Positions 8,720 through 62,691 of a stretch of 64,000 nucleotides of DNA are shown piece by piece. The stretch's first letter is position 1; each line of letters starts with the position of its first letter. The notes below the pieces were generated by a model. The model saw only the letters and a program-made list of their open reading frames with translations, was not told the DNA's origin and did no database searches. The translations under genes and the position numbers were made by a program. The stretch comes from Pelosinus fermentans DSM 17108. GTDB lineage: Bacteria > Bacillota > Negativicutes > DSM-13327. The stretch spans positions 1,058,001-1,122,000 of the forward strand of contig NZ_AKVN02000001.1 in the NCBI RefSeq assembly GCF_000271485.2. The letters run 5' to 3'.

Positions 8720-9247
8720 ATGGACTGGTATGTGCTGCGCACTTTATGTGGAAAAGAAGAAGTAGTTTTATCAATCTTAAAAAAAATGGAAGTATTTTCA
8801 GATTTTGAAGTTTTTTGCCCTAAAAGGAGAATCGGATGGCGAAAAAGTGGACAGGTCGTCAGTATCATCAGACCTTTATTTGAGGGCTACCTATTTGTAT
8901 CGGTAAATAAAAAAGATATTGGTAAATTTGATCGCTTATTGCGTGTCTACAAAATTAATGTAGTCAAACTAGTGAGAAGTGCAGGGTCCTTAGTCCCCAT
9001 ATCCTATCAAGAACGAACGCTGCTTCAGGGGCTGATGGATTATGGAAGAATCGTTGAAGTAAGCAAAATAGAAAGAACAGAAGAAAAAATAAAGGTGATC
9101 GATGGGCCATTGCTGGGATTTGAGCATATGATTAAAAAATTTTCCAGCAGAAATCGGCGTATTACTGTAGAAGTACCAATATTGGAGGAAAAAAAGATCA
9201 TAGAGTTGGAAGGTATTTTGATAAATGCTAAAAAAGAGAATGTGTAA
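8720..9247 (+). CDS. loaP: LoaP-type NusG paralog, processive antiterminator
   Basis: 175 residues with a NusG N-terminal domain (MDWYVLRTLCGKEE at the start, FEGYLFVSV near residue 57) and a C-terminal KOW domain (IDGPLLGFEHMIKKF). It is a specialised NusG paralog rather than housekeeping NusG, as there is no secE/rplK context. The LoaP family was described in Bacillus, where it lets RNA polymerase pass terminators inside long polyketide operons. Here it sits directly upstream of about 54 kb of same-strand PKS-linked genes, and terminator-like hairpins flank it on both sides. AGGAGGGG precedes the ATG. Assignment to LoaP rather than RfaH or UpxY rests on the Firmicute and PKS context and overall length. 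Confidence 0.85.
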   Translation: MDWYVLRTLCGKEEVVLSILKKMEVFSDFEVFCPKRRIGWRKSGQVVSIIRPLFEGYLFVSVNKKDIGKFDRLLRVYKINVVKLVRSAGSLVPISYQERTLLQGLMDYGRIVEVSKIERTEEKIKVIDGPLLGFEHMIKKFSSRNRRITVEVPILEEKKIIELEGILINAKKENV

Positions 9248-12750: not shown

Positions 12751-13707
12751 TTGAAAAAATCCAAAATATTTATGTTTTCAGGTCAAGGATCACAGTATTA
12801 TCGTATGGGCAGGGAGCTGTATGCCACGAATATAACGTTTCACCATTGGATGTCTAGAATGAATCACATAATACAGCAAAATGCTGGAATTAACATTCTA
12901 GAAGAAATATACAACCCAGCAATACATAGATCTACCGTATTTGATAAGCTGTCCTACACGCATCCGGCTATTTTTATGGTGGAATATTCCTTAGCACGAG
13001 TATGCATAGAAAATGGGATTGAACCGGATTATGTGTTAGGAGCAAGCTTAGGAGAATTTGTTTCAGCAGCGATTACTGGCATTTTATCATTGGAAGCAGC
13101 GTTAGAATGTCTATTGATTCAGTCTGCGTTAATCCAGAGTGATTGTCGGCCAGGCAGTATGACAGCGATTGTTCATCATCCTGAATTATATAAGCAAACT
13201 TCTGTTATCCATGACCATTTTGAGCTTGCTGCGATCAATTATTCTTCCCATTTTATTATATCCGGCAATTATCGTGATGAATTGATGACTGTAGAAGCAT
13301 ATTTAAAGAGGGAGGGAATTATTTTTCAGACACTTCCTGTAAGGTATGGCTTTCATTCTGCCAATATTGAACCGATAGAGAGGGAATATAAGAAAAAATT
13401 AAGTAATTTAACATTCAATCATCCTCAGGTACCTTTCATATCATGTGTATCGGCTGGCAGCGTTGACGATATTGATTCGGAGCATTTTTGGAATGTACTT
13501 CGGCAGCCGATTGATTTTCAAAAAACGATACAAAGGCTGGAAGCAGGTAATCAGTTTATGTATATTGATTTAGGTCCATCTGGAACATTGGCTAATTTTG
13601 TGAAAAGAAACCTAACTCCTGACTCGGAGTCAAAAGTGCATACTATTTTAACTCCTTTTGGACAGGATGTCAGGAAACTGCAAAAAGTAATAGAATCATT
13701 AAATTAA
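12751..13707 (+). CDS. Stand-alone acyltransferase-like protein, probable proofreading acyl hydrolase (PksD/PedC type)
   Basis: 318 residues of the FabD/AT fold: FSGQGSQYYRMG at the start, nucleophile motif GASLGE, and the downstream catalytic His in YGFHSANIEP. The Arg that normally binds the malonyl carboxylate (QKRG in the following gene) is replaced here (IQSALIQ). Together with the second AT-like protein next door, this fits the pairing in trans-AT clusters of one true malonyl transferase and one AT-like acyl hydrolase that clears stalled acyl chains from ACPs. It starts with TTG at 12751, 8 bases after AAAGGAG; an ATG at 12747 is out of frame. Hydrolase versus transferase is inferred from the missing Arg. 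Confidence 0.82.
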   Translation: MKKSKIFMFSGQGSQYYRMGRELYATNITFHHWMSRMNHIIQQNAGINILEEIYNPAIHRSTVFDKLSYTHPAIFMVEYSLARVCIENGIEPDYVLGASLGEFVSAAITGILSLEAALECLLIQSALIQSDCRPGSMTAIVHHPELYKQTSVIHDHFELAAINYSSHFIISGNYRDELMTVEAYLKREGIIFQTLPVRYGFHSANIEPIEREYKKKLSNLTFNHPQVPFISCVSAGSVDDIDSEHFWNVLRQPIDFQKTIQRLEAGNQFMYIDLGPSGTLANFVKRNLTPDSESKVHTILTPFGQDVRKLQKVIESLN

Positions 13708-13729
13708 ATGATGAAAGGGGTTATTGTGC

Positions 13730-16096
13730 ATGATTACATATGTTTTTCCTGGTCAGGGTTCCCAGAGTAAAGGGATGGGGGGATCACTTTTTGATGAATT
13801 TAAGGAATTGACGTTAAAAGCAGATGAGGTTCTGGGGTATTCAATTAAGCAGCTTTGTCTGGAAGATGCAGAGTCCAATTTAGGTGAAACACAATATACT
13901 CAGCCTGCTTTGTATGTAGTGAATGCATTAGGTTATCTTAAAAAAGTTAAAGATACAGGAAAAGAACCCGATTATGTTGCTGGCCATAGCCTGGGGGAAT
14001 ATAATGCCTTATTTGCTGCAGGAGCATTTGATTTTACGACGGGATTAAAACTTGTACAAAAGAGGGGACAACTTATGAGCCGCGCTGTTGGAGGCGGCAT
14101 GGGAGCAGTAATTGGTCTAAATGAAGAACAAATATCCGATGCTTTAAAGAAAAATAATATGCTGACGATCGATATTGCAAATTATAATTCGCCTACGCAG
14201 ATTGTAATTTCTGGATTAAGAAAAGATATTGAAGATGCACAGCCTGTTTTCGAAGGAATGAAGGATGTGCAAATGTTTCTTTTACTGAAAACAAGCGGCG
14301 CATTTCATTCTCGCTATATGCAGGAAGCCAGAAAGGAATTTGAAATATTCTTGCAGAATTTTACATTCTCTGATCTGCGCATCCCTGTAATTTCAAATGT
14401 TTATGCCAGACCCTGTAAACAATTCGCTGTAAAGCAAAACTTAATTGAACAGATCACTCAACCCGTTAAATGGACTGAAAGCATTCGATACCTGATGGGA
14501 CTTGGAGAAATGGAATTCGTAGAAATTGGATCTGGTAATGTCTTAACAGGATTGATTAGACGAATTAAAAGAGAAGCACAGCCATTAAAACTTACAGATA
14601 TTGAAAGCAAGAATGATTTGAAAAAAGATGATCTTTCTATACCGCCAGAGAGAGCATCTTTTTTAATTGATACAGAAACAGCTGAGGTACATAATCAGAA
14701 AAGTAATAATGAAAAAGCAAAAGAAAATAATAGAAAATTTGAAGGAATATCCTCATCATCTTTGGGAAGTGCTGCGTTTAAGAAAGACTATAATATTCAA
14801 TATGCCTATATAACTGGTGCAATGTACCGGGGAATTGCTTCAAAAGAAATGGTAGTAAAAATGGGGAAGGCAAAAATGATGGGGTTTCTTGGAACTGGCG
14901 GTCTAAACGTATCACAAATTGAAGCAGCCATTCAATATATTCAAAAGGAGCTTTCCGAAGGACAGGCCTATGGGATGAATTTGCTCCATAATCCAATTGA
15001 TCCTAAGAAAGAAGAAGAAATAGTAGATCTTTATTTGTTGCATGGTGTGAAAACTTTGGAAGCAGCGGCTTTTATCAGTATTACTCCAGCCTTGGTTAAA
15101 TACCGGGCCAAAGGAATGACGCGAAATCCTCAGGGCGAAGCTATTGCATTCAACAGGATCATTGCTAAAGTATCACGGCCGGAAGTGGCAGAAACATTCT
15201 TTAGCCCTGCTCCGGAGCGGATTGTTGCGAAGCTGCTGGCAGAAAAGAAAATTACAGAGGAAGAAGCAGATCTATTAAAGGCGGTTCCTATGGCTGATGA
15301 TATTTGTGCCGAAGCCGATTCGGCAGGGCATACAGATGGAGGAGTAGCTTCTGCGCTAATACCGGCAATGATTACGCTGCGAGATCAGATGATGAGAAAA
15401 TATCAATACCAGAAAAAAGTACGAGTTGGCGCAGCCGGAGGCATTGGGACTCCTGAGGCTGCAGCTGCGGCCTTTATTATGGGGGCAGATTTTATCGTGA
15501 CGGGTTCCATTAATCAGTGTACAGTAGAGGCATCTACAAGCAGCAATGTAAAAGATCTGCTGCAGCAGATGAATGTTCAGGATACGGATTATGCGCCTGC
15601 AGGAGATATGTTTGAAATGGGTGCCAAAATTCAGGTATTAAAAAAGGGACTATTCTTTCCGATACGGGCGAATAAATTGTATGAATTGTATCGGAGGTAT
15701 AATTCATTGGACGAGATTGATGAAAAAACTAAGGTACAGATACAGGAAAAATATTTTAAAAAAAGTTTTAGCGATGTATATCAAGATATTAAATCCTTTT
15801 ATCCTGCTGAAGAAATCGAAAAAGCAGAACGAAATCCTAAGCACAAAATGGCCCTCATTTTTCGGTGGTATTTTGGTTATAGTACTCGATTGGCTTTAGG
15901 AGGAAGTGAGGAAAATAAAGTTGACTATCAAATACATTGCGGACCTGCTCTCGGGGCATTCAATCAATGGGTTAAAGGAACAAATTTAGAAGATTGGAAG
16001 CAGAGGAACGTAGATGTGATTGCAGTAAAATTAATGAATGAGACTGTAGAATTATTAAATCAGCGCTATAAAAACTTCTTGGAGAATTGCAATTAA
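13730..16096 (+). CDS. Trans-acting malonyl transferase fused to PfaD-like enoyl reductase (PksE type)
   Basis: 788 residues from ATG 13730, 9 bases after AAAGGGG. Residues about 1-290 are an acyltransferase with all key parts: FPGQGSQ, GHSLGE, the carboxylate-binding Arg in VQKRGQLM, and GAFHS, whose Phe fits malonyl specificity. After a charged linker (about 290-345), residues about 350-780 are an FMN-dependent TIM-barrel enoyl reductase of the PfaD type ([45 protein letters not shown]). Since none of the PKS modules has its own AT, this protein should supply malonyl units to every ACP. The ER acts in trans; which module it serves is not visible. Confidence 0.93.
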
Positions 16097-16163: not shown

Positions 16164-17159
16164 ATGATACGCTGTGACAAATGTATAATGCCGGAAACAA
16201 ATCCCCATGTTGTTTTAGATGAAAAAGGGGTATGCAATATCTGCAATCAGCAGAAAGACAGGAAGGATGAGGATACCAGCAGCAGCCAAGACAAAAATTT
16301 TGAAGTGTTAAAAGCTAAAATAGAAAAATCCAGATCCAAAAATACTGGGAAATATGATTGTGCAGTGGGGCTTTCCGGCGGTAAGGATAGTACGATGACC
16401 TTATATCTGGCTAAAAAAGAATTAGGATTGAATCCATTGGCAATTTTTATTGATAACGGGTTTGCTCTTGAAGAAATGTACTATAATATACAGACTGTTA
16501 CCAGTAAATTAGGAGTAGATCTCATTGTTTATAAGCCAGGTGAAATTAAAGATTTCTTAATCTACCTTTTGAAATCGAAGAAGCCCATATATTATTGCAG
16601 GCCCTGTCATGAATTGCTTGATGTGTATGTCAGGGATATAGCATCCAAACACGGGATAAACTTAATCCTGGGGGGATACACTAAAGGACAGGAGTATGTT
16701 AAGAATACGGAGTTATACTGGTTATTTGATATATCTGATAAAAGTATTCATGATGAACTTAGCAAAGAACCTGATTTTAAAGATATCTTATCTATTTTAG
16801 ATGACCATGCGCTATATCTATATGAGACGTTTGAATCTATGGTTCAAATAAACCCTTTTCAATATATGAAATATGATGATGAAAGCATAATTAAATTTCT
16901 TACCCGGGAATTTAACGTCAGATTTCCTAAGAAGAGTTGGCCGGCAGATTCAACAAATTGCTTTTTTAACTACGTGTCTCAGCATTTAGCAGTAAAAAAC
17001 TTTGGTTATTCACAGCATGAGACTGAACTAAGCACTCTCATCCGCAAAGGTGAATTGAGCAGAGAGAGGGCACTTCATATTATTAATGCACCAATTCCCA
17101 TGGAATATGTTGAGGATGCCCTTAGCAGACTTGGCTTAAAATATGAGGACGTAATATAA
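16164..17159 (+). CDS. PP-loop (N-type) ATP pyrophosphatase, amidotransferase-like; candidate oxazole cyclodehydratase
   Basis: 331 residues. An N-terminal zinc knuckle (CDKCIMPE ... GVCNIC) is followed by the PP-loop SGGKDST at about residue 72 and a further CRPCHE motif at about 150. This combination resembles N-acetyl sugar amidotransferases, but no LPS or pseudaminic acid genes are nearby. The gene immediately precedes a PKS gene whose first module builds N-formylglycine. To my knowledge, oxazole-forming pathways primed by N-formylglycine (conglobatin, oxazolomycin) also encode a PP-loop protein proposed to cyclise that end, so a similar role is the leading guess. Thioamide or amide formation is an alternative, as PP-loop enzymes also activate carbonyls for sulfur or nitrogen attack. 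A strong terminator hairpin follows. Confidence 0.75.
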   Translation: MIRCDKCIMPETNPHVVLDEKGVCNICNQQKDRKDEDTSSSQDKNFEVLKAKIEKSRSKNTGKYDCAVGLSGGKDSTMTLYLAKKELGLNPLAIFIDNGFALEEMYYNIQTVTSKLGVDLIVYKPGEIKDFLIYLLKSKKPIYYCRPCHELLDVYVRDIASKHGINLILGGYTKGQEYVKNTELYWLFDISDKSIHDELSKEPDFKDILSILDDHALYLYETFESMVQINPFQYMKYDDESIIKFLTREFNVRFPKKSWPADSTNCFFNYVSQHLAVKNFGYSQHETELSTLIRKGELSRERALHIINAPIPMEYVEDALSRLGLKYEDVI

Positions 17160-17170
17160 GGAATTTTTTG

Positions 17171-17216
17171 CAGTTATAACCTGCCTGGCTGAAAGCCGGC
17201 AGGTTATAACTGTTTT
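17171..17216 (+). terminator. Strong terminator hairpin inside the PKS operon
   Basis: CAGTTATAACCTGCC (17171-17185) pairs perfectly with GGCAGGTTATAACTG (17198-17212), topped by GGCT/AGCC with a 3-base loop and followed by TTTT. It separates the PP-loop gene from the first giant PKS gene with no obvious promoter after it, as expected of a terminator overridden by LoaP. Confidence 0.8.
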
Positions 17217-17281
17217 CTAAACACGTAGGATAGTACGAAATGACGATCAGTCAAAGAAAATCGATTGAGGAGAGGGATCGT

Positions 17282-20200
17282 ATGGGTAATGACGGTAAAT
17301 TCAGCTGCTATATTATTGGTGACGGGGCATTACTTACTGCTTGCGGGGAACTCATAATTGATTCCGGTCATGATATTTACGGAGTTATTTCTTCCAATCC
17401 TTCCATTCGGGAATGGGCTGAAGACAAAGGAATAACATGTGCAGATCATGACAGCGATTATGGGGATTTCTTAAAACAAAAGCCTTTTGATTATTTATTT
17501 AGCATCGTTTATCTTAGCCTAATACCCAGAAACATACTTGCATTGCCGCAAAAAATGGCGATAAATTTTCATGATGCATTATTGCCCGAATATGCGGGGA
17601 TACACGCGACTTCTTGGGCTATAATGAATCAGGAGAAACAGCATGGAATCACCTGGCACGAAATGGTCTCTGCGGTTGATAAAGGAAATATTCTAAAACA
17701 AATGATAATACCAGTCGAAGAGGGGGAGACAGCACATTCTTTAAATGTGAAATGTTATAAGGCGGGGTTGGAATCTTTTAGGGATCTGGTAGAGGAACTG
17801 GCTAAGGGCAGCTATTCACTAACCTTTCAAGATTTAAATCGTCGAACGTATTATGGAAAATATCAGCATCCTCCTGCCGGATGTGTTTTATCATGGGGCT
17901 CTTCTGCTGAGGAAATGGATGCAGTTGTAAGAGCGCTGCAATTTGGAAAATATCAGAATCAACTTGGAATTGCCAAGTTGGCAGTGAATGATGAATATAT
18001 TATTGTTGACCAGATTTTTGTTACCAAAAATAAATCAGATGCAAAGCCTGGAACGATTGTTGCTATTACAGATTTGAACTTTACAGTGGCGACGGTAAGC
18101 AATGATATTGAGATACGTTCAATCAGATCTATTCATGGAGCCCAATGGCCAATTTCTGATTGCATAAAAAAATATCATTTAAAGGCAGGAGGCTTATTGC
18201 CTGGAATTGCTAGGAAAACAAGTACGAGAATTACAGCATTGCATAAGGAAATAAGCCGATTCGAAGACTATTGGATTAAAAAATTGTCAAAAATGGATGC
18301 TGCTATCTGGCCAGGTGCTATTCAAAATGCAGAGGACATAGATAGCATTCATAATTCCTTCGTAGATTTTACAATAGCGGAAGGGTTTATCACTTATGCA
18401 GAGCAGGATTACGGCAGTCGATTGGCAAGTTGTTTAGCTGCCATTAGTACGTTTTTATCCAAAGAATGCAAGACAAACAGTGTTCAAATTTTTCTTGGAT
18501 ACCAGGAATTAAGAGCCGATTTTCAAGGCGTGGATACGCTGTTTGCTGTCCATGTGCCCGTGGAGTTGGAATTGAATGATACTTTTACTTTTAGAGATAT
18601 TTGTGATATTGCAAGGGCAGAAATACAATCTGTAAAGGAGCACCAGACTTTTCTTCATGATCTTATTGTTCGAACTCCTCAACTGAAGGCGAATTCTGTT
18701 GTACATGAAAAAAAATTGCTGTCATTCACAGTGGAATATGTAAAAGAGCTTACGGATTATTCTCAGCAGGCCTGCAATAGGTACGGCATTTCATTAATTG
18801 TGCCAGAAATGGGCAATACTTGGCGGATTGTTTTTAATGAGGCGCTGTTAACAACAACAAAAGCTGTTAACGGTACGAATCGGCTTGCAGCATGTATGGC
18901 GCGAGCTGCTGCCACGCCAGATGCTCCCATAAGTAAATTGACTGCCTTGACAGATGCTGAATTTCACAAAGCAATATATGAGAGAAATCATACAGTTGCT
19001 GAATATCCAAGAGATAAGTGCATGCATGAATTATTTAAAGAGAGAGTTAAGCAATCACCGGAAAAAATTGCTGTACTGTACAGGGATGAAAGTCTGACGT
19101 GTATGGAATTAGAAGAAAAAGCATCACGTCTTGCTTCCTTTTTAAATCGAGTTGGGGTAGGCAGAGGGAACTTGGTAGGGATTTTTATGGAACGATCATT
19201 GGATATGCTGGTGGGATTACTGGGCGTATTGAAAGCGGGAGGAACCTATGTGCCGATTGATCCCCTTTATCCTGGAGAAAGAATTTTGCACATGATTGAA
19301 GATGCAGATATTAAAATGGTTCTGACACAGAATGAGATCAAGCATAAGCTACCTGGCAGCAATGCCAGGATCATTTGTCTGGATACAGACTGGGAGGAAA
19401 TATCTAAGAATAGCGGCAAAAGCTCTTCGCGGAAATATTACTCTTATGCGAGCAAGACTATCAGACCTGAGGATTCGGCATATGTTATTTTTACATCAGG
19501 TTCAACGGGAAAGCCAAAAGGTGTGGAAGTAACCCAGAGGGGATTGACAAATTTTCTTTGTGCGATGGCGAAGTGTCCAGGTTTTACAAAAGAAGACCGA
19601 GTTCTGGCGTTAACGACAATCTGCTTTGATATTGCAGGTCTTGAGTTATATTTGCCTCTTATTACTGGAGGGCAGGTTGAAATATTGCCTACAGAAATCG
19701 CCCGAGATGGATTTGCACTAAAAGAACGGATTGAGAAGGAATGGGCTACTGTTGTTCAGGCTACGCCTGCAACATGGGAGATGCTTCTAGAGGCTGGCTG
19801 GGATAAAAGAACATCGATTAAGATATTATGCGGCGGAGAAGCGTTAAGCAGACAATTAGCACAAAAGCTCTTAGACAGAAGTAATGAAGTTTGGAATATG
19901 TATGGACCGACAGAAACGACAATTTGGTCTTCTGTTTCCAAAATCAATTTTGGGGAAGAAATAACGATCGGATATCCTATTGGAAATACTCAATTTTATA
20001 TAGTAGATGAGCATCTAAATCCAGTACCTGATGGAGTGGAAGGGGAACTGTGTATTGGCGGTGACGGGTTAGCAAAAGGATATTTGAATCGTCCGGAATT
20101 GACCAGTGAGAAATTTATTTTGAATCCATTTGCTGCGGATTTACAATTAAAAATGTATCGAACTGGAGATTGTGCTACGTATTTACCGGATGGCAGAGTA

Positions 20201-23200
20201 GTTTGTTTAGGAAGAATCGATAATCAAGTGAAGTTGAGAGGATTCAGGATTGAGCTTGGTGAAATTGAGGCAGTCTTACAAAAACAACTTCATGTCAAGC
20301 AGGCAGTAGTCGTAATGAAAGAAGACAGCACAGGATATAAAAGCTTAGCTGCATTTATGGTGCCAGGTAAATTCCAAGATATTATCGCAGGAAGCAAGCT
20401 TAGGGAAGCAATGAGAGAATTCCTTCCCGATTATATGATTCCTGCCTCCTTTGTGTATCTGGAGATGTTACCCTTGACTCTTAATTTGAAAGTAGATAGA
20501 AAAGTGCTGACAGCTGTCCCTGACTTTCAGCTGATAGAGAAGTATGGCTATAAAGAAATGAATCATCATATATACGTCCCTGCTAATGACAGCATAAAGA
20601 CTCTTGAATGGAAAGAAGAGGCGCCGAAGGCTGCAGGTCATTTTGCAGAGGACCTGACTAAGATCATTGCAGGAGTAGTTAAAATTTCGGCTGAGGAGAT
20701 TCATGCTGAAATTCCCATGGGTGAATATGGTTTTGACTCAATCCGCTTTACCGTACTAAGTAAAAGAATCAAAGATGCATATAACATATCGGTTACTCCT
20801 GCCCAGTTTTATACTTATGAAACCGTTAATAAACTAATTGACTACATGTCAAGGGCTTATCAGGAGGAACTTGACAGGCATTATGGCAAAGAGTCGAAAG
20901 GGATACAGGATTCACTTTCCAAAAGTAAAGTTGAAGCAGCCGATTCAGCGCATGAAGCAGCTTTTGAATTCGATTCAGATCAGAGGAAATGGAAAAAAGA
21001 GCCCGTAGCAATCATTGGTATAGGAGGTACATTTCCTCAAGCCCCTGATTTGGATACTTTCTGGGATCATATTGTAAATAAGAGAGATTTGATTACCCCA
21101 ATACCTTGGGAGCGTTGGGATTCCAATCATTATTATGCTAAAATCGCAGAGGAAAAGAAGATTCCTTTTGCAAAGTGGGGAGGTTTTTTAGAAGATGTTG
21201 ATAAATTTGATGCAGCATTCTTTAATATCTCACCCCGTGAAGCTGAGCAGATGGATCCTCAGCAGCGCATATTTCTTGAAACGGTATGGAAAGCAATTGA
21301 GATTGCGGGCTATAAGGCATCAGAATTCTCTGGTACTAAGACTGGCGTATATGTTGGAGCAGTAAGTTCAGATTATTGGGATATGATGTTATGTTCCGGA
21401 CTTGAGGCTGATTCGTATACCATTTCAGGGAATATCAACTGTGTGATTGCAAACAGGGTTTCTTATTTATTGAATCTTCAAGGAGCCAGTGCAACCATTG
21501 ATACCGCATGCTCAAGTTCTTTAGTAGCAATCCATAGAGCTGTGGCCGCGATACAACATGGTGATTGCGACATGGCAATTGCTGGCGGCGTTAATGTTAT
21601 ATTGAATCCTTTCATGCATACTGCTCTGGGGATCAATGGAATGCTTAGTGTGGATGGGCGGTGCAAAACCTTTGACAGCCAGGCAAATGGCTATGTAAGA
21701 GGGGAAGGGGCAGGAGTACTCATTTTAAAGCCTCTCAGCAAAGCCATTGAGGATGGTGACAATATCCATGCAGTTATTAAAGGTTCTTCTGAAAACCATG
21801 GAGGAAGGACAAATTCATTAACGGCTCCGAATCCTAATGCACAAGCCGATTTGCTTATCAGTGCTTACAGTGAGGCACAAATCGATCCATCGACAGTAAC
21901 CTATATTGAAGCCCACGGGACAGGGACTAGCTTGGGAGATCCAATTGAAATTAACGGCATAAAGATGGCCTTTGAAGAATTGGGTAAAAAGTGGGGAAGG
22001 ATAGGAGCTGAAAAGTACTGCGGTCTTGGATCCGTAAAGAGCAATATAGGACATTTGGAGGCTGGTGCCGGTGTCGCAGGGCTGCTAAAAATAGTACTGG
22101 CAATGCAAAAAGGCGTCCTGCCTGGAATGATTCATTTTAAAGAACAAAATCCGTACATCAACTTAGAAGGAACGCCGTTTTATATTGCAGCTGAGACACA
22201 GGAATGGAAACGGATAAGGGATAGTGCAGGGCAAACCGTACCAAGGAGAGCCGGTGTGAGTTCTTTTGGCTTTGGCGGCTCCAATGCACATGTTGTTCTA
22301 GAGGAATATTGCAGTACGAAAACAAATGCTGAAATAAACGATAACATTCCCAATGTTTTTCTGCTTTCTGCCAAGAGTGAGGACAGGCTTAGAGCATATG
22401 CTGCCGATATGCTTGCATTTTTAGAAGAATTTGCAGCACGTGAAGAAAAAGGAGAATGGATAGGGACTCTTTTTACTGATATGATGTATACCTTGCAGAT
22501 GGGGCGCGAGGCTATGAATAAACGACTTGCCATCGTCGCTTCTAATATAAAAGAGCTGACTGAGAAGCTAAGACAGTACTGTGCCGATGAAAAAGAAATA
22601 ACACAAGTCTATACAGGAGCCGGCGGACTGGAAACAAAGAACATTTCAGCCCTGCTTGAAGGAAGCAACGGCAAAGAGTTTCTTGCAGCGATCATAAGAC
22701 AAAAGGAATATAAGAAATTGGCTCATCTTTGGATTGGGGGAGCAGCGGTAGATTGGAGTTTGCTATACAGCCATTCGAAGCCCGCACGAATCAGCCTGCC
22801 ATCATATCCTTTTGCCAGGGAGCGCCATTGGCTGCCTATCAATAAAAATGTACTGGTAAGTAAATCTGAAGTACAGCCAGGCCGGCTTCATCCTTTGCTG
22901 CACCAAAATACCTCTGACTTTTTTGAACAGCGTTTTAGTTCAGTCTTTTCAGGGAATGAATTTTTTCTTAAGGATCATATTGTTAAGGGGCAGCGGGTGC
23001 TGCCAGGAGTTGCTTACCTTGAAATTGCTCATGCGGCAGTCGTACTGGCTTCAGGTATGAAAGAGAAACAGAATAGTATTAAGATCAAGAATGTGACTTG
23101 GATTCGTCCGATGATTGTGGGAGATATAGAATTGCAGGTACAAATCAGGCTCTTGCCGGAAGAAAATGGAGATATCAATTATGAAATATATAGTCAGTCA

Positions 23201-26200
23201 GCCTTAGGCGGCACTGCAGCAACCGTACATAGTCAGGGGCGTGCTGTACTGAGTCCGGTTACCGAACCTTCCGCATTAGATCTGCAAGCCTTACAGAGAC
23301 AATGCAGTCATGGCACTATTTCATCTGGTCAGTGCTATGAAGCTTACAGGACGATGGGAATTGATTATGGACCAGGACATCAGGGCATCAGGGAAATCTA
23401 TGTGGGAGAATATCAGGTTCTGGCAAAGATCTCTATGCCATCGTATGTTCGTGATATGCAGGAAGAGTTTATCATGCATCCCAGCATAATGGATTCAGCC
23501 TTACAAGCATCAATTGGCTTAATCATGAGCTATGGCGAAATAGAGCCTTCAAAACCAATTGTACCCTTTGCCTTACAAGAGATTGAGATTTTTCAGAAAT
23601 GCACTTCTGCTATGTGGGCTCATGTCCGTTATAGTAACGGCAGTAAACCAGGCGATAAAATACAAAAATTAGATATTGATGTATGCGATGAGCTGGGAGG
23701 AATTTGTGTACGATTAAAAGGCTTCTCCGCCAGAGTAATGGAGAAAGATAATATTCAGAAGGAATCATCAGCGGTTCTGGAAACGCTGATGTTCCATTCC
23801 AGCTGGATAGTAAAAGATGCCAATGCAGAAGCTGCTTTCCCGGATGATACGCAGCAGATCGTAATCTTTTGTGAACCAGATGAAATGGTTAAGGAAAAAA
23901 TCAAGGAAAAGATGAACAGCAATCGTTACCTTATTTTACAGTCGAATCAGGAGCAGGTAGAGGAGCGGTTTCAATCCTATGTATTTCAAGTATTTGATGA
24001 AATTCAAAATGTACTTAGAAGCAAGCCTAGAAACAATGTTTTAATCCAAATTATCATCTCAATACAAGAAGAGCAGCAGCTCTTTTCTGCACTTTTTGCC
24101 TTAATAAAAACAGCTCATCTTGAAAATCCCAAGGTATGGGGACAATTGATTGAAGTGGAATTAGGGGAGTCTTGGGAAAGACTTTCGGAAAAGCTGGCAG
24201 AGAATAGTCGATGCCCGATGGATAGGAGAATTCAATATCTGAATGGGAAACGCCGGGTTGCTGTTTGGAGGGAAATAGAAAGCTCCCTGGAGGTTTTACC
24301 AACTCCATGGAAAGAGCAGGGAATCTATTTGATCACAGGAGGTGCAGGAGGCCTAGGGTTACTATTCGCTCAAGAGATTGCACAGCAAGTTAAGAATCCG
24401 GTCATTATTTTAACTGGCCGATCTGCCCTTAATGAAGAAAAGCGTGAAAAACTGAAGAGATTGGTGGAATTGGGGGCTAAGATCGAATACAGGCAGGCCG
24501 ACATAACGGATAAGAAAGGGGTTATCAGATTGATCCAAACCATTCAGGAGCAATTTGGTGATCTTCATGGCATTATTCATGCTGCAGGAGTAATCCGGGA
24601 TAATTTTATTATAAAAAAGACGAAAGAAGAAATACAGGAAGTTTTGGCTCCGAAGGTTTCAGGGCTAGTGTATCTGGATCATGCCACTAGAAATATGAAG
24701 CTGGATTTTTTCATTCTGTTTTCCTCTATATCAGGAAGTCTGGGCAATGTGGGACAGGCTGATTATGCTGTGGCCAATGACTTTATGAATGCATATGCCG
24801 GATATCGTAATGCTCTGGCTGCAGCAAAACAGCGGCAGGGTCAGACGCTTGCCATAAATTGGCCTTTATGGCAAGCGGGCGGGATGAATGTTAATGAAGC
24901 AATCGAAAAAATGATACGAAATATGGGTATGGCAGCCATGCCTACTGCCAGCGGTCTAAGATTATTCTATTTAGGGATGAATACAGATAAGGATCAAGTG
25001 CTGGTAATGACAGGCGATCCAGGGCGAATACAGGAAAAGCTGCTTTTAACAGCACAGCTCTCCCAGCCTGATAAAATCATTGCAGCATCAACTTTTACGG
25101 AAGCGGCTTATGGCAGTAATCTGCTGGACATAATCCAGTCACTTTTAATACAAATGACATCCAAGCTGCTTAAGGTCAGGATAGAAGAAATAGATAGCAA
25201 CACGGAATTGAATGAATATGGTTTTGACTCCATTACATTCACTGAATTTGCAAATCAGCTCAACCAAGAGTATAAGCTTGAATTAACACCTGTTATATTT
25301 TTTGAATATCCAACTCTCCATCGTTTTGCTGAGTACTTGCTCGAAAGTTACCAAGCTGTATTTTCATCACAATTAGCAGCGCAAAAGGATACAGATCTCA
25401 TTTCACCTAAAGTCATTGATAATGGCAGTCTGCTAGAGAATATACAGATGATTTTAATCCAAGTCGTATCGGGATTGCTCAAAGTTAGAGCCAATGATAT
25501 AGACAGGAATACGGAACTAAATGAATATGGATTTGACTCCATTATGTATACTGAATTTGCTAATCTACTGAACCAGGAATATAAATTTGAATTAACTCCT
25601 GCTGTATTCTTTGAATATTCTACCATTCAAAGTTTTGCAGAATATCTCACTAAAGAGTATCGCACTCTGCTGGTATCACAATTTGCAGCAGCTGTGAATG
25701 TTGAACAAACCACGATACATGTGCCCACAGAGGGCCTGCATACGAAAAGCTATTCTCGATTTATAAGGACAATGCCCCTGACGTTGTCCAAAGTGGATGA
25801 AAAGGATCAGGAAGCCATTGCAATAGTTGGGGTCAGTGGCATATTCCCCATGGCTAAAGATATGAATGAACTTTGGAAGAATCTTCTGGAGAATAAGGAT
25901 TGTATTACAGAGATTCCTAAAAGTCGCTGGGATTGGCGGGAGTATTATGGTGATCCTGTAAAAGACATCAATAAGACTAACATTAAGTGGGGAGGATTTA
26001 TTGATGGCATAGAGGAGTTTGACCCTTTATTCTTTGGAATTTCTCCACGAGAAGCTGAATTAATGGATCCGCAGCAGCGCCTGTTAATGACTTATGCCTG
26101 GAAGGCAATAGAAGATGCCGGTTACTCGGCTCAAAGTCTTTCTGGCACGCAAACAGGAATTTTCGTAGGGACTGCAAGCTGCAGCGGCTATAGCGGCTTA

Positions 26201-28549: not shown

Positions 28550-31500
28550 TGACATTTGAAGAAGTCTGGCAGGAGAAAACTTTGCCAAATCATGGGCCGG
28601 TTAAGATCAGAACACTGGTTTGTTTTCTGTCCAATGCAGAAAATCAAAACAAGGCAGCAGAAGAGCTTCAAACCCTTGATCCGCAAACAAAAATACTCTT
28701 CATCTCTCAACATCCAAATCATACAGCATCCTCCCATACCATTTATTCCATTTCCCGCAAAGATCCTTCTAGCTATGAACAGGCATTTCAAAGCATCCGG
28801 GAGGAGTACGGCGAGATAGACGGGATGCTGTATCTGTGGCCAATAGAAGATGCCACATGTATTGAAGACTATTCCGTCATTGTGTATCTGCTGCAAAGTA
28901 TTGCTGCCGTAAAACTAAAAGCCAGGCGAGTCTTGCTGGGAGCACAGTTTGAAACAGGGCTGGAACGCTGCTATCTGGATTCCTGGATTGGTTTTGAGCG
29001 CTCTTTAGGGCTTGTTCTGCCCAATACGCAAGTAGCTGTGATGTATCAAAAGAGCAGCGGGCCAGATGCAAAATCGACTATGGAAGATTGGCTGACCAAA
29101 CTCTGGTCAGAACTGGAGACCGAGAAACTCCAAAGCGTTTTCTACCAAGGGGGAAAACGCTATGTATACCAGGTTCAGGAAACGTTTCTAGAGACAGGCA
29201 GCAGCCTTTTACAGGCAGGAGGAACCTATCTCATAACAGGAGGGTGCGGAGGACTGGGCTTTCTATTTGCCAGGCACTTTGCCAAAACCCATGGGGCGAA
29301 TCTAATCCTAACAGGCAGATCAGCCCTGGATGAGGAAAAGCAGGCAAAAATCCGGGAATTAGAAGCACTAGGCAGCCATGCCCTATACCTGCAGGCAGAC
29401 AGCTGCGATGTAAGCAGTATGAAGAGGGCTTTGGGAGAGGCGAAAGCAAAATATGGCAAGATCCATGGAGTGATTCATGCAGCGGGTCTGGCAGGCAGCC
29501 AAAGTCTATTTGAAAAAGACCTGGCAGGATTCAGCAAGATAATCGAACCGAAAATTAAAGGCACTCTGGTGCTGGATGAAGTGCTTCAGGAAGAGGCGCT
29601 TCATTTTATGTGCTATTTTTCCTCTTCATCGGCCATCCTAGGGGATTTTGGTTCTTGTGACTATGCCATCGGCAACCGTTTTCAGATGGCGTATGCTCAC
29701 TATCGGCAGGAAAAACAGCTGGAGGGAAAGGCATATGGCAAGAGTCTGGTGATAAACTGGCCTTTATGGAAGGATGGGGGAATGGGAGTCGGTGAGGAAG
29801 AGAACAGCAAGCTCTATTTAAAATCCAGCGGACAGCGTTTTTTAGAAGCGGAAGAAGGCGTTGGGATATTTGATCAATTGTTAACGCAAAACAAAGCCCA
29901 GCATTTAATCGTAGTTGGAGAGCGCAGCCGGGTACAGCGCTTTTTAAGGCTGTCATCACAAGAACAGCCTGTTGTATCAGCGGCGACTGCTTCTATGTCT
30001 GGCCGCCCGGGAAGACGAGCCGAAATGAAGGGATTTACCCTGGAGCAATGCATTGAATGGGATCTGAAAGAACAAGCCAGCCAGCTGCTGAAAATTCCGC
30101 GGGACAAGTTGGAGCGGGATGAAAATCTGGCAGAGTTTGGTTTTGATTCCATTGCTTTAACTCAATTCTCAAACTTGTTAACTCATCATTATGGAATAGA
30201 AGTGACTCCTGCTATATTTTTCGGGTATTCAACCCTTGAGCGGTTAACACAATATTATTTGAAGGAACATCAAGACATGCTGCAGCTTTTCTATCAAGAG
30301 ACGCATGCAAAGCTGGTTATAAACCCGCAGCAAATTCCGGCAGTTACCTTAACCTCCAAACGCCAGGCAGCCACGCAATTCAGATTTATAAAGAAACCAG
30401 CTTCTCAACAGATACAGGGGCAGGAACCCATTGCCATCATTGGAATGAGCGGCCGCTTCCCGGAAGCCAGAACCGTAGATGAAATGTGGCAGATTCTTGC
30501 CGCAGGCAAAGACGTAATCCAAGACTTTCCGGCAGACCGCTTCTCAGGAAAAGGGAAAAGTCCATATCAATACGGTGCCATTCCGGGAGTCAGTGAATTT
30601 GACCCGCTGTTCTTTGAGATATCCCCCCGGGAAGCCGAAAGCATGGACCCCAGACAGCGGCTGCTGCTGCAGGAATCATGGAAGGCCTTAGAAGATGCAG
30701 GCTATGGAAGCTCCCAGATCCAAAAGAGTAAAATCGGTATGTTTGTGGGAGTGGAAGAAGGGGATTATCGCTTGCTGCTCAAAGAAAAGAGCAGCATTAC
30801 GTCCAATCATAATGCCGTTTTATCGGCCCGCTTAGCCTATTTCCTAAACCTAAGCGGACCGAATATGGCAATTAATACGGCCTGCTCCTCCGGCTTAGTG
30901 GCAGTACATCAAGCCTGCCAAAGCATCCGCCAGCAAGAATGTGACACCGCCCTGGCGGCCGGCGTGAATCTGCTGCTGACACCGCAGATGTTTCAAGGAA
31001 TGAGTGAAGCGGGTATGCTGTCAGAGGATGGGAAGTGCTTTGCCTTTGATAAAAGAGCCAATGGGATGGTTCCAGCGGAAGCGGTTGCGGTAGTGGTACT
31101 AAAACGCCTGTCCCAGGCAAAGGCAGATAAAGATCCGATCTATGCCGTAATCAAAGGAAGCGGTATTAACTATGACGGAAAAACCAATGGAATCACCGCT
31201 CCCAGTGGTGCTTCCCAAACGAAGCTTCTAAAATCGGTGTATGATCAGTACCAGATAAACCCCGAAGACCTTGAATACATTGTCACTCATGGGACGGGGA
31301 CGAAATTAGGAGATCCCATTGAAGTCAATGCTCTGTATGATGCATTTAAAGACTATACGAAAAAGCAGGGCTACTGCGCCCTGACGTCGACCAAGACCAA
31401 CTTTGGACATGCACTGGCGGCTTCCGGTCTGGTGAGCTTAATTAGCCTGGTTCAGGCATTTCGTCATGAAACCATACCAGCCAGCCTTCACTTTCAAGAA

Positions 31501-59700: not shown

Positions 59701-62691
59701 TTGGCACTGACATCTACTACGCCGACAGTGCTTCCTGCCCGTATTTCCTATGCCTTAGATTTGCAAGGCCCCAGCGAATATTGCGATACAGCTTGTTCCT
59801 CCACGCTTGTTGCATTGCACCGGGCAGTACAAGCTATTCAAAATGGTGAATGTGAACAGGCCATTGTAGGTGCTGTCAATTTACTGCTTTCGCCTTTAGG
59901 ATTTGTTGGTCTTGATTCATTGGGGTATCTCAGCCCGGACGGAAAGGTAAGATCATTTCAGGCGGATGCTAATGGATATGCGAGGAGCGAAGGAGTCGGC
60001 GTACTCATTATAAAACCCTTGCAGCAAGCGATTAAAGACAAGGACCAAATTTTTGCAGTCGTGAAGGGAACGGGGGTTTCTCATGGCGGCAAAGGGATGT
60101 CGTTAACTGCCCCAAATGCAAATGGAATGAAAGCGGCTATGATTCAGGCATACCAAGCCGCAAAAATTGACCCGCGGACAGTGTCTTACATCGAAGCTCA
60201 CGGGATTGCCTCTCTCTTAGGAGATGGTATTGAAATTGACGCATTGAAGGCAGGTTATCAGGAACTTGTGGCACGGCAAGCTTCAGAACATGTACAAAAT
60301 CAGCACGTATGTCATATCAGCAGTTTGAAGCCATGCATTGGCAATGCTGAAGTGGCTTCAGGAATGGCTGCATTGATAAAAGTCATTTCAGCCATGCGCA
60401 ATCGGATAATTCCGGGTATTGCTGGATTTACTGCTTTATCCGATCAGATTTCTTTAGAAGGGAGTCCGTTTCAAATTGCCGCGGGCAACTATGAGTGGAG
60501 TGCGTTAAAGAATATTCATGGCAGCAGTTTGCCTCGGCGTGCCAGCATCAATGGCTACGGATTTAGCGGGGTTAATGCACATGCAGTCCTGGAGGAATAT
60601 GTTCCTAAGCGGGAAAAGGCGATTCTTCCAGAAGAAAATTTACCTTATATAGTGCCTTTATCAGCAAAAAACAGAGCTCGTCTTGATGATTATGTTCGAA
60701 AGCTCCTTCTATTTCTAAAAGCAAGAGATGGGTCAGCGGCGGATTCTGCCCTGCATTTAGCCGATGTAGCCTATACCTTTCAAGTAGGGCGCGAAGCAAT
60801 GGAAACCAGAATCGCCTTTATTGTCAAAGACATAAAGGAGCTGATGGAAAAGCTGGCGAACTTCATCAATGGAACAGAAAATATTGAAAATTGTTTTATC
60901 GGAGATACTAAGCAAAGAATTGCTGCTCAGTTATTTGGGACAGATGATGATTTTGACGAGTTGCTTCATAAGTGGATTACAAAGGGAAAAATGAAAAAGG
61001 TGGCAGAACTATGGAGTAAGGGGATTTCCATCGAATGGGAATTGCTCTATCAGGATAGGAAACCCCAACGAATCAGCTTGCCAACCTATCCCTTTGCGAA
61101 GGATCATTATAAGATTTTTTCACAACAGGAAAAAAAATCTTCGGTTATTATCGAAAAGGCAGATATACAATCCGGAAATGAGAATCCTGTTCAAAGTAAT
61201 CAGAAGGATAATTTGGAATATATTACCAGACTAGTTCAGGATACATTAGGGCTGCCTGCAAATGTTGCAATTGATCCTCAGAGCCAATTAAGAGAATTTG
61301 GAATGGACTCGATATCCGGGATTCAAATACTGGAAAAGATAAGGCAGAAACTAGGTGTCCAATTAGACGGCAGAAAATTTTTTACGGAATTTACGCTGCA
61401 AAGCATTATCAGTCAATTAGATGCAGTATCCCAGCAGGATACAACTCCTCTATCACCATGGGAAATGGACAAAAAACTACCTATGAACGTAACATTAAAA
61501 TTGAAGAAAACTTCCTTTACGCATACTTCCTTGCCGGAGAACATCCTTTTGACTGGAGCAACTGGACTAATAGGGGCTTTTCTGTGCAATGAAATTCTAC
61601 AGCAGACGTCTGCAACTGTCTATTGCCTTGTTCGCGCCGAATCAGCATCTTTAGGATTGCAGCGTCTACAAGAAAATTTAAATAAATTTGCATTGTGGCA
61701 ATCGGATTATCATTCCCGAATTATTCCTGTTTTAGGAGATATAACAATGCCCCAATTAGGAATAGAAGAAATGATATATGACAAATTAAGTCATTCCATT
61801 GATGTGATTTATCATTGCGCCGCACTTCCCAACCATATATTAAATTATTATTCACTGAAAAGTGCGAATGTGAATGGTACCTTAGCGATGATAGAATTTG
61901 CGGCAAAGGGAAAAGTTAAACCAATACATTTTACGTCAACTATTGCAGTTTGCTCTCAGATGGATGGCGATGCCATATTGCCGGCACATCAAGAGGAAAC
62001 TTTACTGGAACAAGGCAAGAATTTGACTAGTGGTTATGCACAGTCTAAATGGGTCTCAGAGCATCATCTCATGCAAGCTCAAGAAAGAGGGATTCCGGTT
62101 ACCGTTTTCCGATGTGGAGAAATTACTGGATCTAGTCAGACGGGATATGGAATTGCTGAAGATATGGTGCATAATTTTTTAAAGATCTTTAGTGAAGTCA
62201 AAGTAATTCCAGATTGGGATGAAGGTGTAATGGATATCGTTCCCATTGACTATGTAAGTAAAGTAATTTTAACAGTGAGTCAGCAAAAAGACTGCTACGG
62301 GAAAATTTATCATTTAAATCATATACGGCCATTTCCAGTCAGAGATTTTTTTACCTATCTAGAGAGAAGAAATCCTTTGCTCACAAAAACGACCTTTGAT
62401 GAATGGGCGGATTCTTGTTTACGCTATATTAGCGAATTAGCGGAAAGTCCAGTGAAAACGATCATGTTAGGATTTTTTACAAAACTTGATTCCGGTCCGA
62501 GAATATTTGAGTACTATTTTACTGATTTGGGCCTGAAAAATGAGAACCTTCAAAAGGTCTTGCAAAATCTTGACATTCACTTTCCACAGATGAACGATCA
62601 ATGGTGGGAAAAGTGTATGAAGCAAATGCTGTTATTTGGACAAAAAGACACCCAGCTGGTAGATGGGGTAAAAGTTTCAGCATCTGTTTAA
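53728..62691 (+). CDS. PKS4: terminal trans-AT PKS with non-elongating KS and thioester reductase
   Basis: About 2987 residues. Window positions: docking helices 53728-53830; ACP10 53870-54130, with Gln (53992-53994) replacing the phosphopantetheine Ser (GLDQ); ACP11 54210-54460 (GIDSI); KS9 54605-55920 (Cys, His, His present); DH8 56485-57350 (one residue short in the His motif, NAGMQ for DxxxQ); KR7 57420-58830 (A-type); ACP12 58880-59160; KS10 59290-60600 with Cys kept but the second catalytic His replaced by Asn (CIGNAE at 60343); ACP13 61210-61440; reductase 61530-62640 (LLTGATGLIG, YAQSK), an NADPH-type thioester reductase that releases an aldehyde or alcohol. No thioesterase. ATG 53728 follows GAGGGGGAG; GTG 53704, overlapping the PKS3 stop, is the alternative. 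Confidence 0.92.
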   Translation: MESQLSSLYKQIKDKKISREDAIKQIQEYKAKHTQQHILPILENHALSKTATLIEEIQTVLLQMASELSRVTIEDIDLEAQWNENGLDQVMLAALADRLNQDYKLELLPSIFYTQLTIQSFAEYLVNEHCDMLAGQMQAKELSHPITEKSKVMTEFEEELLKEKAIRYFKQQLSSVLKLPVHRIDENAQMEKYGIDSIMVMQLTNELEKIFGSLPKTLFFEYESLHQITDYFLAAYRTELIRILNVEDGTAISAKSDSSTGAEKKNSLFRSSRKLRPPEFSEGSIRQKAAAGVDVAIIGVSGRYPGARNLQEYWRNLRDGKDCITEIPKDRWDHSLYFDEDKNKFGKTYSKWGGFLEGVDQFDPLFFNISPREAQFIDPQERLFLQCVFETLEDAGYTRQSLGLKENFNIEGNVGVYVGVMYEEYQLYGAQEQIQGRPIALSGNPSSVANRVSYFFNFHGPSMAIDTMCSSSLTAIHLACQSLQQGGCELAIAGGVNVSIHPNKYLMLGQGKFISSKGRCESFGQGGDGYVPGEGVGAVLLKPLTQAIADGDNIYGIIKATAINHGGKTNGYTVPNPNAQARVINQAFAETRINPRMISYIEAHGTGTSLGDPIEIAGLSKFFKEHTRDKQFCAIGSAKSNIGHCESAAGIAGVTKVLLQLKYRQLVPSLHSKTLNPNIDFNNTPFFVQQELAEWKRPLINIHGKTEEQPRIAGISSFGAGGSNAHVVIEEYIPEKQNPVIHQISQQHPAMIVLSAKNEERLLEKVRQLLLMIKEVGFFDANLAEIAYTLQIGRETMDERLAIAVNSIKELEEKLSRFLERDEDIENLYRGKNKNNKEILAALGPDEDMAVMIDSWMRKGKYTKLLEVWVKGLIIDWKKLYGKARPRRISLPTYPFARERYWVPEIETAAANPILTSTGNARMLHPLLHQNTSDLAEQRFTSTFSGKETFFVNHVKGFRALPEAACLEMVREALQQAAGRLQEGQKILLTNIRWMFPIGVDESLLEVHIGLIPEDSGEIIFEVYSQAGGREEETIVYSQGTAVFSGVSAENIELDLAAIQEQCRNHFNASQYYEALRNAGYNYGPEYQGVEAVYVGREQVLAKLVIPSCIAETHPQFMLHPSLLNAGMQGTIGFTLNSEDSRLMLPAALQELEILGPCSPAMWAWIRYSEGSAAADPLQQFDIDLCDTQGKVCIRMKGLEMQGDTEESTFGDSVEVARQSLAVPKKQEAFEMMTFEETWQEKALSNRGPAKIRTLVCFLSNADNQNKAAEELQTLDPQTRILFISQHPNHTASSHIIYSISRKDPSAYEQTFQSIREEYGEIDGMLYLWSIEDATCIEDYSVIVYLLQSIAAVKLKAGRVLLGAQFETGLERCYLDSWIGFERSLGLVLPNTQVAVMYQEKSVRDRKAAMEDWLTKLWSELQTEKLQSVFYQGGKRYVYQIQETFLETGSSLLQAGGTYLITGGCGGLGFLFARHFAKTHGANLILTGRSALDEEKQAKIRELEALGSHALYLQADSCDVSSMKTALGEAKAKYGKIHGVIHAAGLAGSQSLFEKDLAGFRTIIEPKIKGTLVLDEVLQEEALHFMCYFSSSSAILGDFGSCDYAIGNRFQMAYAHYRQEKQLEGKAYGKSLVINWPLWKDGGMGVGEEENSKLYLKSSGQRFLEAEEGTVMFDCILSQSTIQQLVLVGQPSRIKRFLGLTQDDVSLSLVSLNSPSRGRRPEMKGLNLEQCVEWDLKEYISQLLKIPFNKLDKEDNLADFGFDSISLAQLAALLRSHYGIEVTATLFFGYSTIEKLTQYFVTDYRNIMDEFYKEEAVWQPVEQKHSTEKAVVGPKFQNTRFARRREKNAEDTKQQGSIAIVGMSGKFPMAEDVHELWENIAEGRECIAEIPKERWDWQEFYGDSVKEFNKTKIKWGGFITEIDEFDSLFFKISPKEAESMDPKQRMLMTFVWRAMEDAGITPKEMSKKSTGVFIAACPSEYTDSVSMQNNSLALTSTTPTVLPARISYALDLQGPSEYCDTACSSTLVALHRAVQAIQNGECEQAIVGAVNLLLSPLGFVGLDSLGYLSPDGKVRSFQADANGYARSEGVGVLIIKPLQQAIKDKDQIFAVVKGTGVSHGGKGMSLTAPNANGMKAAMIQAYQAAKIDPRTVSYIEAHGIASLLGDGIEIDALKAGYQELVARQASEHVQNQHVCHISSLKPCIGNAEVASGMAALIKVISAMRNRIIPGIAGFTALSDQISLEGSPFQIAAGNYEWSALKNIHGSSLPRRASINGYGFSGVNAHAVLEEYVPKREKAILPEENLPYIVPLSAKNRARLDDYVRKLLLFLKARDGSAADSALHLADVAYTFQVGREAMETRIAFIVKDIKELMEKLANFINGTENIENCFIGDTKQRIAAQLFGTDDDFDELLHKWITKGKMKKVAELWSKGISIEWELLYQDRKPQRISLPTYPFAKDHYKIFSQQEKKSSVIIEKADIQSGNENPVQSNQKDNLEYITRLVQDTLGLPANVAIDPQSQLREFGMDSISGIQILEKIRQKLGVQLDGRKFFTEFTLQSIISQLDAVSQQDTTPLSPWEMDKKLPMNVTLKLKKTSFTHTSLPENILLTGATGLIGAFLCNEILQQTSATVYCLVRAESASLGLQRLQENLNKFALWQSDYHSRIIPVLGDITMPQLGIEEMIYDKLSHSIDVIYHCAALPNHILNYYSLKSANVNGTLAMIEFAAKGKVKPIHFTSTIAVCSQMDGDAILPAHQEETLLEQGKNLTSGYAQSKWVSEHHLMQAQERGIPVTVFRCGEITGSSQTGYGIAEDMVHNFLKIFSEVKVIPDWDEGVMDIVPIDYVSKVILTVSQQKDCYGKIYHLNHIRPFPVRDFFTYLERRNPLLTKTTFDEWADSCLRYISELAESPVKTIMLGFFTKLDSGPRIFEYYFTDLGLKNENLQKVLQNLDIHFPQMNDQWWEKCMKQMLLFGQKDTQLVDGVKVSASV
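57158..58731 (+). repeat. Repeat A copy 3: DH end and A-type KR block
   Basis: Near-identical to 44364-45937 at an offset of 12794. It differs by a few local clusters, for example about 57925-57955, where a short stretch of linker is replaced. Homology stops before the ACP. Confidence 0.88.

Follow-up and report, generated by a model that had tools for sequence, protein, structure and literature searches.

We examined a 64,000-nucleotide window (the whole stretch of DNA analysed) from the 5.0 Mb genome of Pelosinus fermentans DSM 17108, in which a trans-acyltransferase (trans-AT) polyketide synthase (PKS) begins with a loading module made of a formyltransferase, the C-terminal lobe of a condensation (C) domain (the C-lobe), an adenylation (A) domain with a glycine code and a carrier. 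This module very probably provides an N-formylglycyl starter. The gene of an adenine-nucleotide alpha-hydrolase (AANH, an N-type ATP pyrophosphatase), absent from an earlier note on this DNA (the original prediction), lies directly upstream, which implies that the final starter is probably something other than N-formylglycine. The explanation that we find best as a whole, at somewhat short of an even chance, is that of a trans-AT PKS initiation module whose N-formylglycine is then converted to N-thioformylglycine by the AANH. The domains, catalytic residues, glycine code, isolated C-lobe, AANH residues and gene adjacency were read from sequence or structure prediction, and functional statements throughout (formylation, AANH action on the formamide, sulfur) are predictions. 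The features that carry the argument are the following, in positions of the window.

16164..17159, + strand: AANH (N-type ATP pyrophosphatase) protein; TIGR03573 match, cysteine alignment, fold match
17240..18169, + strand: formyltransferase, N- and C-subdomains (aa 1-310); PF00551/PF02911, with N109, H111 and D147
18170..19009, + strand: condensation-domain C-terminal lobe (aa 311-590), no HHxxxDG, probably structural; AlphaFold2 and fold matches, Z about 20
19010..20524, + strand: adenylation domain, pocket code DILQLGMIWK (glycine); Pfam, pocket residues, published glycine code
20651..20845, + strand: loading-module carrier, motif YGFDSI (PKS-type); PF00550, 50.9 bits

The predicted formylating loading module

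The module opens the open reading frame (ORF) 17240-28549 on the + strand, in which its residues are numbered. Pfam gives, in order, Formyl_trans_N/C (66.8 and 22.5 bits), a stretch without match at about aa 313-598, AMP-binding (301.8 bits), AMP-binding_C, PP-binding and a ketosynthase (KS). All the domains named in the original prediction are thus present, although its start at 17300 was too late, as they extend back to 17240, where the gene begins (or to the ATG at 17282). The intact N/H/D residues that it placed at the head of the assembly line are N109, H111 and D147; they are intact here and wherever the formyltransferase of a locus could be read, and are conserved throughout a diverse alignment of ten rows. 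The N-x-H and D of the window align with those of LgrA, the linear gramicidin enzyme of formyltransferase, A domain and peptidyl carrier protein (F-A-PCP), which has the same catalytic residues and formylates a carrier-bound amino acid.

The A-domain pocket, earlier read by eye, shows the same ten residues when taken at the GrsA positions (D797, I798, L801, Q840, L863, G865, M887, I895, W896 and K1084). The resulting DILQLGMIWK is listed for four glycine-activating domains (PMC12283262) and is thus an exact known glycine code. The carrier was called an acyl carrier protein (ACP), which is reasonable given its PKS-type motif. With an N-H-D formyltransferase followed directly by an A domain and a carrier at the start of the assembly line, the module is organised as an F-A-PCP initiation module. 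The A domain would load glycine onto the carrier, and the formyltransferase would then formylate its amine using formyl-tetrahydrofolate; the intact triad, the exact glycine code and the loading position all support the N-formylglycyl starter that had been proposed.

The half condensation domain

The stretch 18161-19039 was modelled alone with AlphaFold2, using 62 aligned sequences, and the model was submitted to a fold search. It is confident (pLDDT 90.4, pTM 0.86) and corresponds to the C-terminal lobe of a condensation domain, for example to EntF residues 175-440 (Z 19.7; 232 residues aligned at rmsd 2.9). The better-fitting condensation domains align from about residue 175-185 to their end (EntF 175-440, TycB 180-461, McyB 184-465), so the N-lobe with HHxxxDG is missing, and this motif was not found in 18161-19039. 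The claim that only the C-terminal half is retained is thus borne out: a catalytic condensation domain has the N-lobe and HHxxxDG, the C-lobe alone is present here, and the complete catalytic domain that would have spoken against the claim was not seen in the prediction.

This half domain had also been presented as an oddity of the cluster, which does not hold. Genome contigs were scanned with a formyltransferase/C-lobe profile, giving at least 562 confirmed stretches, of which 80 were kept. In all 72 kept loci with both borders measurable, the spacer from formyltransferase to A domain is of near-constant length, 232-289 residues (median 274). With its 281 residues, the window falls within the 230-290 aa that characterise this formyltransferase/C-lobe/A family. 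The layout recurs in dozens of loci across many phyla, the triad being intact and the A codes widely varied; modules from rhizobia, myxobacteria, cyanobacteria, Streptomyces and others have the domain order and spacing of the window, but mostly other amino acid codes and mostly no AANH neighbour in view. The half condensation domain is thus ordinary, as it belongs to a large and widespread family. LgrA passes from the formyltransferase to the A domain without a C-lobe (window residue 587 aligns to LgrA 199) and belongs to a nonribosomal peptide synthetase (NRPS), so formylating starters come in at least two architectures. No account of a half condensation domain in formylating modules was found in a literature search that mostly covered papers outside subscription. 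The widespread layout and its conserved spacing should help to annotate formylating starter modules and to engineer them.

The C-lobe is always retained, yet it is the least constrained in sequence of the three domains. Over 77 loci, the formyltransferase is on average 42% identical to that of the window and the A domain 39%, against 25% in the C-lobe. Between the window and P. fermentans JBW45, in which the formyltransferase/C-lobe stretch is 92% identical, dN/dS is 0.14 for the A domain, 0.28 for the formyltransferase and 0.39 for the C-lobe, the strongest purifying selection being that on the AANH (0.09). Always kept but fastest-diverging, the C-lobe looks like an old structural remnant, a scaffold of a condensation domain whose N-lobe was long ago replaced by the formyltransferase, and which would persist between its two neighbours as a spacer or a platform. 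The idea that the formyltransferase displaced the first half of the domain therefore keeps its first part, as an isolated C-lobe fits N-lobe replacement, and loses its second: any displacement must be ancient and not specific to this cluster, because the layout spans many phyla with widely differing A codes. A recent displacement within the Pelosinus cluster is ruled out on the same ground.

In some members of the family, namely L041 (9992-14602), L042 and loci with DILEFGLxW-type codes, an insert interrupts the A domain. The annotation of the L041 protein, a MupA/Atu3671 luciferase-like monooxygenase, hints that the loaded residue may be oxidised.

The AANH protein and the starter it may modify

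The AANH carries an N-terminal Zn-ribbon pattern (C4/C7/C24/C27), an SGGKDS motif at 71-76 and an Fe-S-type set of cysteines, C145xxC148 and C266. Its D75/S76, C145/C148 and C266 match in order and spacing D77/S78, C154/C157 and C284 of CtaC, as published (PMC6772006), so that it has the ATP-motif D/S and the three Fe-S cysteines (CxxC plus C) of the CtaC type. CtaC is the carrier-dependent thioamide synthetase of closthioamide, from an anaerobe, and its three-cysteine set binds an Fe-S cluster (PMC6772006). The two proteins thus have in common these positions, an anaerobic host and, as predicted here, a carrier-bound amide substrate; this likeness is drawn from published residue positions, and the substrates differ, CtaC acting on poly-beta-alanine amides whereas the predicted Pelosinus amide is an N-terminal formamide. 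The cysteine triad is present in 11/11 AANH relatives from formyltransferase, NRPS or ligase contexts, against 2/11 of those treated as sugar-type. These two, L032 and L130, mean that it was not retained as a perfect marker of NRPS context.

The four PKS ORFs of the window yielded no further A or C domain. The formamide is thus the only amide that the assembly line should make and the likely AANH substrate, and the residue pattern and gene position together suggest that the AANH does probably act on it. AANH enzymes adenylate their substrate, and a nucleophile then displaces AMP (PMC6772006). Here, the formamide oxygen would be adenylated, and among sulfide, intramolecular oxygen and ammonia we favour sulfide as the displacing nucleophile because of the Fe-S-type triad, a choice that stays tentative. 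The product would be an N-thioformylglycyl starter, which KS1 would extend and the ketoreductase (KR) and dehydratase (DH) of module 1 would convert to an alkene. That a trans-AT polyketide of an anaerobe begins with N-thioformylglycine, through a CtaC-type Fe-S AANH acting on a carrier-bound formamide, is on the whole possible but doubtful. No thioformyl starter was described in the literature that we searched. What is new is the pairing, in an anaerobic trans-AT pathway, of an N-formylglycyl module and an AANH resembling CtaC; the thioformyl starter is its leading, unproven interpretation.

Several observations weigh against this interpretation as a whole. The nearest solved fold of the AANH is an N-acetyl sugar amidotransferase, 8WEX (Z 22.2), followed by NcsA/TtuA (Z 12.3), and not a thiolase. 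The Pelosinus genome G004 keeps the formyltransferase module (formyltransferase 69% identical, A code drifted to DILQLGGIYK) beside a decayed AANH remnant, so that the module does not always require an AANH. The cluster showed no sulfur-donor gene, which is likewise the case of the closthioamide cluster (PMC6772006). Finally, the cysteine triad is also present in Streptomyces AANHs that neighbour formyltransferase-glycine modules and whose contexts suit oxazole formation; it therefore does not discriminate between sulfur insertion and cyclisation.

An oxazole starter is indeed what the clusters of oxazolomycin, conglobatin and phthoxazolin bring to mind: a glycine-specific F-A-PCP (OzmO, CongA, PtxE) likewise starts a polyketide beside an SGGKDS protein of AANH type (OzmP, CongE, PtxD) for which a cyclodehydratase role is proposed (PMC4504003, PMC5764310). 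The window has the same motif and adjacency, and N-formylglycyl and the first malonyl unit would close to a 5-substituted oxazole. Three Streptomyces loci (L095, L100, L113) present formyltransferase, C-lobe, glycine A domain and PCP, then an AANH, then a KS, the arrangement described for ozmO-ozmP and congA-congE (PMC4504003, PMC5764310); from it and from SGGKDS, we infer that their AANHs are OzmP/CongE relatives. Two metagenome-assembled genomes with a related AANH (L050, L056) contain two nitroreductase-type, oxidase-like domains, as would be expected if an azole were made from another residue. This chemistry needs, however, a ketone from module 1, where Pelosinus has no minimal, ketone-keeping module but KS1-DH1-KR1-ACP-ACP with apparently intact KR and DH (motifs only); module 1 of phthoxazolin has been characterised as minimal, and in that of the Streptomyces loci no more than a KS, a degenerate acyltransferase (AT) region and an ACP is visible. 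KS2 clusters with KS4 and KS6, each placed after a DH-KR module whose product it takes. The Pelosinus AANH lies upstream, the reverse of ozmO-ozmP, its loading module is fused to the PKS, and in a tree of weak deep support it groups apart from the Streptomyces proteins. We consider the oxazole unlikely.

A plain N-formylglycyl starter, with the AANH acting elsewhere (on another molecule, for instance) or no longer used in the pathway, appears rather improbable, if a shade less so than the oxazole. It would account for G004, and for the glycine-coded modules of L039, L040, L043, L098 and L099, around which no AANH was seen in the DNA, some of these loci being short contigs and so weak evidence. 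It leaves unexplained why the AANH is adjacent and so strongly constrained, and why its pairing with a formyltransferase module recurs in distant metagenome-assembled genomes. Ammonia transfer to the formamide, giving a formamidine, recalls the WbpG/WbuX-type sugar amidotransferases, which make acetamidines, and agrees with the nearest fold and with the best family model, TIGR03573 (N-acetyl sugar amidotransferase). The AANH scores below the cut-off of this model (173.5 against 203.2 bits), though, and no hisH/hisF partner is present among window ORFs of 150 aa or more, whereas hisH lies within 1.5 kb in 4/7 annotated sugar enzymes fetched; the cysteine triad is moreover missing in most sugar-type enzymes (9/11). 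This makes the formamidine very improbable, and the thioformyl starter remains our preferred interpretation.

If the AANH does act on the formamide, the AANH and loading module would offer a two-gene system of about 4.7 kb for studying OzmP/CongE action, and would bear on whether AANHs that activate carrier-protein amides make oxazoles, thioamides or both. A true thioformyl starter would extend carrier-bound thioamidation to a polyketide starter; and should related AANHs work in the oxazole pathways of Streptomyces, cyclisation to the oxazole might even proceed from a thioformamide intermediate.

The AANH gene lies directly upstream of the loading module in 4/8 Pelosinus genomes (97-99% identity), G004 with its remnant being a fifth to have the formyltransferase, and homologues of 47% identity stand directly upstream of formyltransferase/C-lobe/A modules in L050 and L056, which belong to other phyla. 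A search of 398 genomes of the phylum gave, outside the window's own genome, only distant matches (27-36%), and no close AANH was found in the plasmid collection. In a tree with few rows, long branches and weak deep support, the window AANH forms a firm clade (99/98) with those of L050 and L056, and the Streptomyces proteins, standing in for OzmP and CongE, are placed elsewhere. Formyltransferase-adjacent AANHs do not form one group in this tree, although a single origin remains conceivable. Direct orthology of the window AANH with the OzmP-like Streptomyces proteins found no support (about 28% identity over 122 aa, sugar-type amidotransferases scoring higher), and a strict link between glycine code and AANH was rejected: L050 and L056 combine an AANH with DLFDFSLVWK, and several glycine modules show no AANH.

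The L050 (9980-15622) and L056 (9709-15309) clusters are compact, with an AANH and a formyltransferase/C-lobe/A/PCP/PCP module bearing two tandem nitroreductase-type domains, shown by Pfam at the end of the module protein in one of them, the other reading alike. Their A code resembles DLYNLSLIWK, a known cysteine code, which suggests a formyl-derived azole. On a Roseovarius pelagicus plasmid (L019, 7421-15469), an AANH domain with the cysteine triad is inserted within an NRPS A domain; on a Streptomyces NBC_01216 plasmid (L018, 11932-14112), such a domain precedes an NRPS condensation domain, with asnB nearby. On an Agrobacterium sp. RAC06 plasmid (L124, 356-2634), a stand-alone formyltransferase gene lies after asnB and directly before a sugar-type AANH gene.

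The intergenic hairpin and the rest of the gene set

The genes form a one-strand series: a LoaP-like antiterminator, an RND pump, a trans-acting AT, an AT-enoylreductase fusion, the AANH, four large PKS genes and a phosphopantetheinyl transferase. The features outside the loading module are listed below.

8720..9247, + strand: LoaP-like antiterminator, head of the gene set; NF033641, 114.8 bits, cut-off 125
12751-13707, + strand: trans-acting AT; sequence/profile reading
13724-16096, + strand: AT-enoylreductase fusion; sequence/profile reading
17170..17213, + strand: long conserved hairpin then TTTTCT, terminator-like, between AANH and loading module
20987..25666, + strand: extension module 1, KS1-DH1-KR1-ACP-ACP; intact KS, DH and KR motifs, KR catalytic S/Y/N read from sequence
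61540..62289, + strand: terminal reductive-release (R) domain; PF07993, 210.5 bits
62767..63570, + strand: 4'-phosphopantetheinyl transferase; profile search

The hairpin (17170-17218) has a free energy of about -28 to -36 kcal/mol with flanks and is present in four Pelosinus genomes. The G004 copy shows paired changes on both arms (CCTACC/GGTAGG for CCTGCC/GGCAGG). Together with the upstream LoaP-like gene, its TTTTCT tail makes a regulated terminator inside the operon possible.

The activity of KS, DH and KR domains was judged from motifs alone. KS3, KS7 and KS8 (30421-31512, 46493-47587, 49613-50707) are without the EAHGTG and KSNIGH motifs and look non-elongating; they are nearly identical, which suggests recent duplication. 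The JBW45 locus (L023, 18956-19999) shares the AANH and loading module with the window, its downstream assembly line being different; about 20 kb further on, it has a second A domain, with 49% identity to the first.

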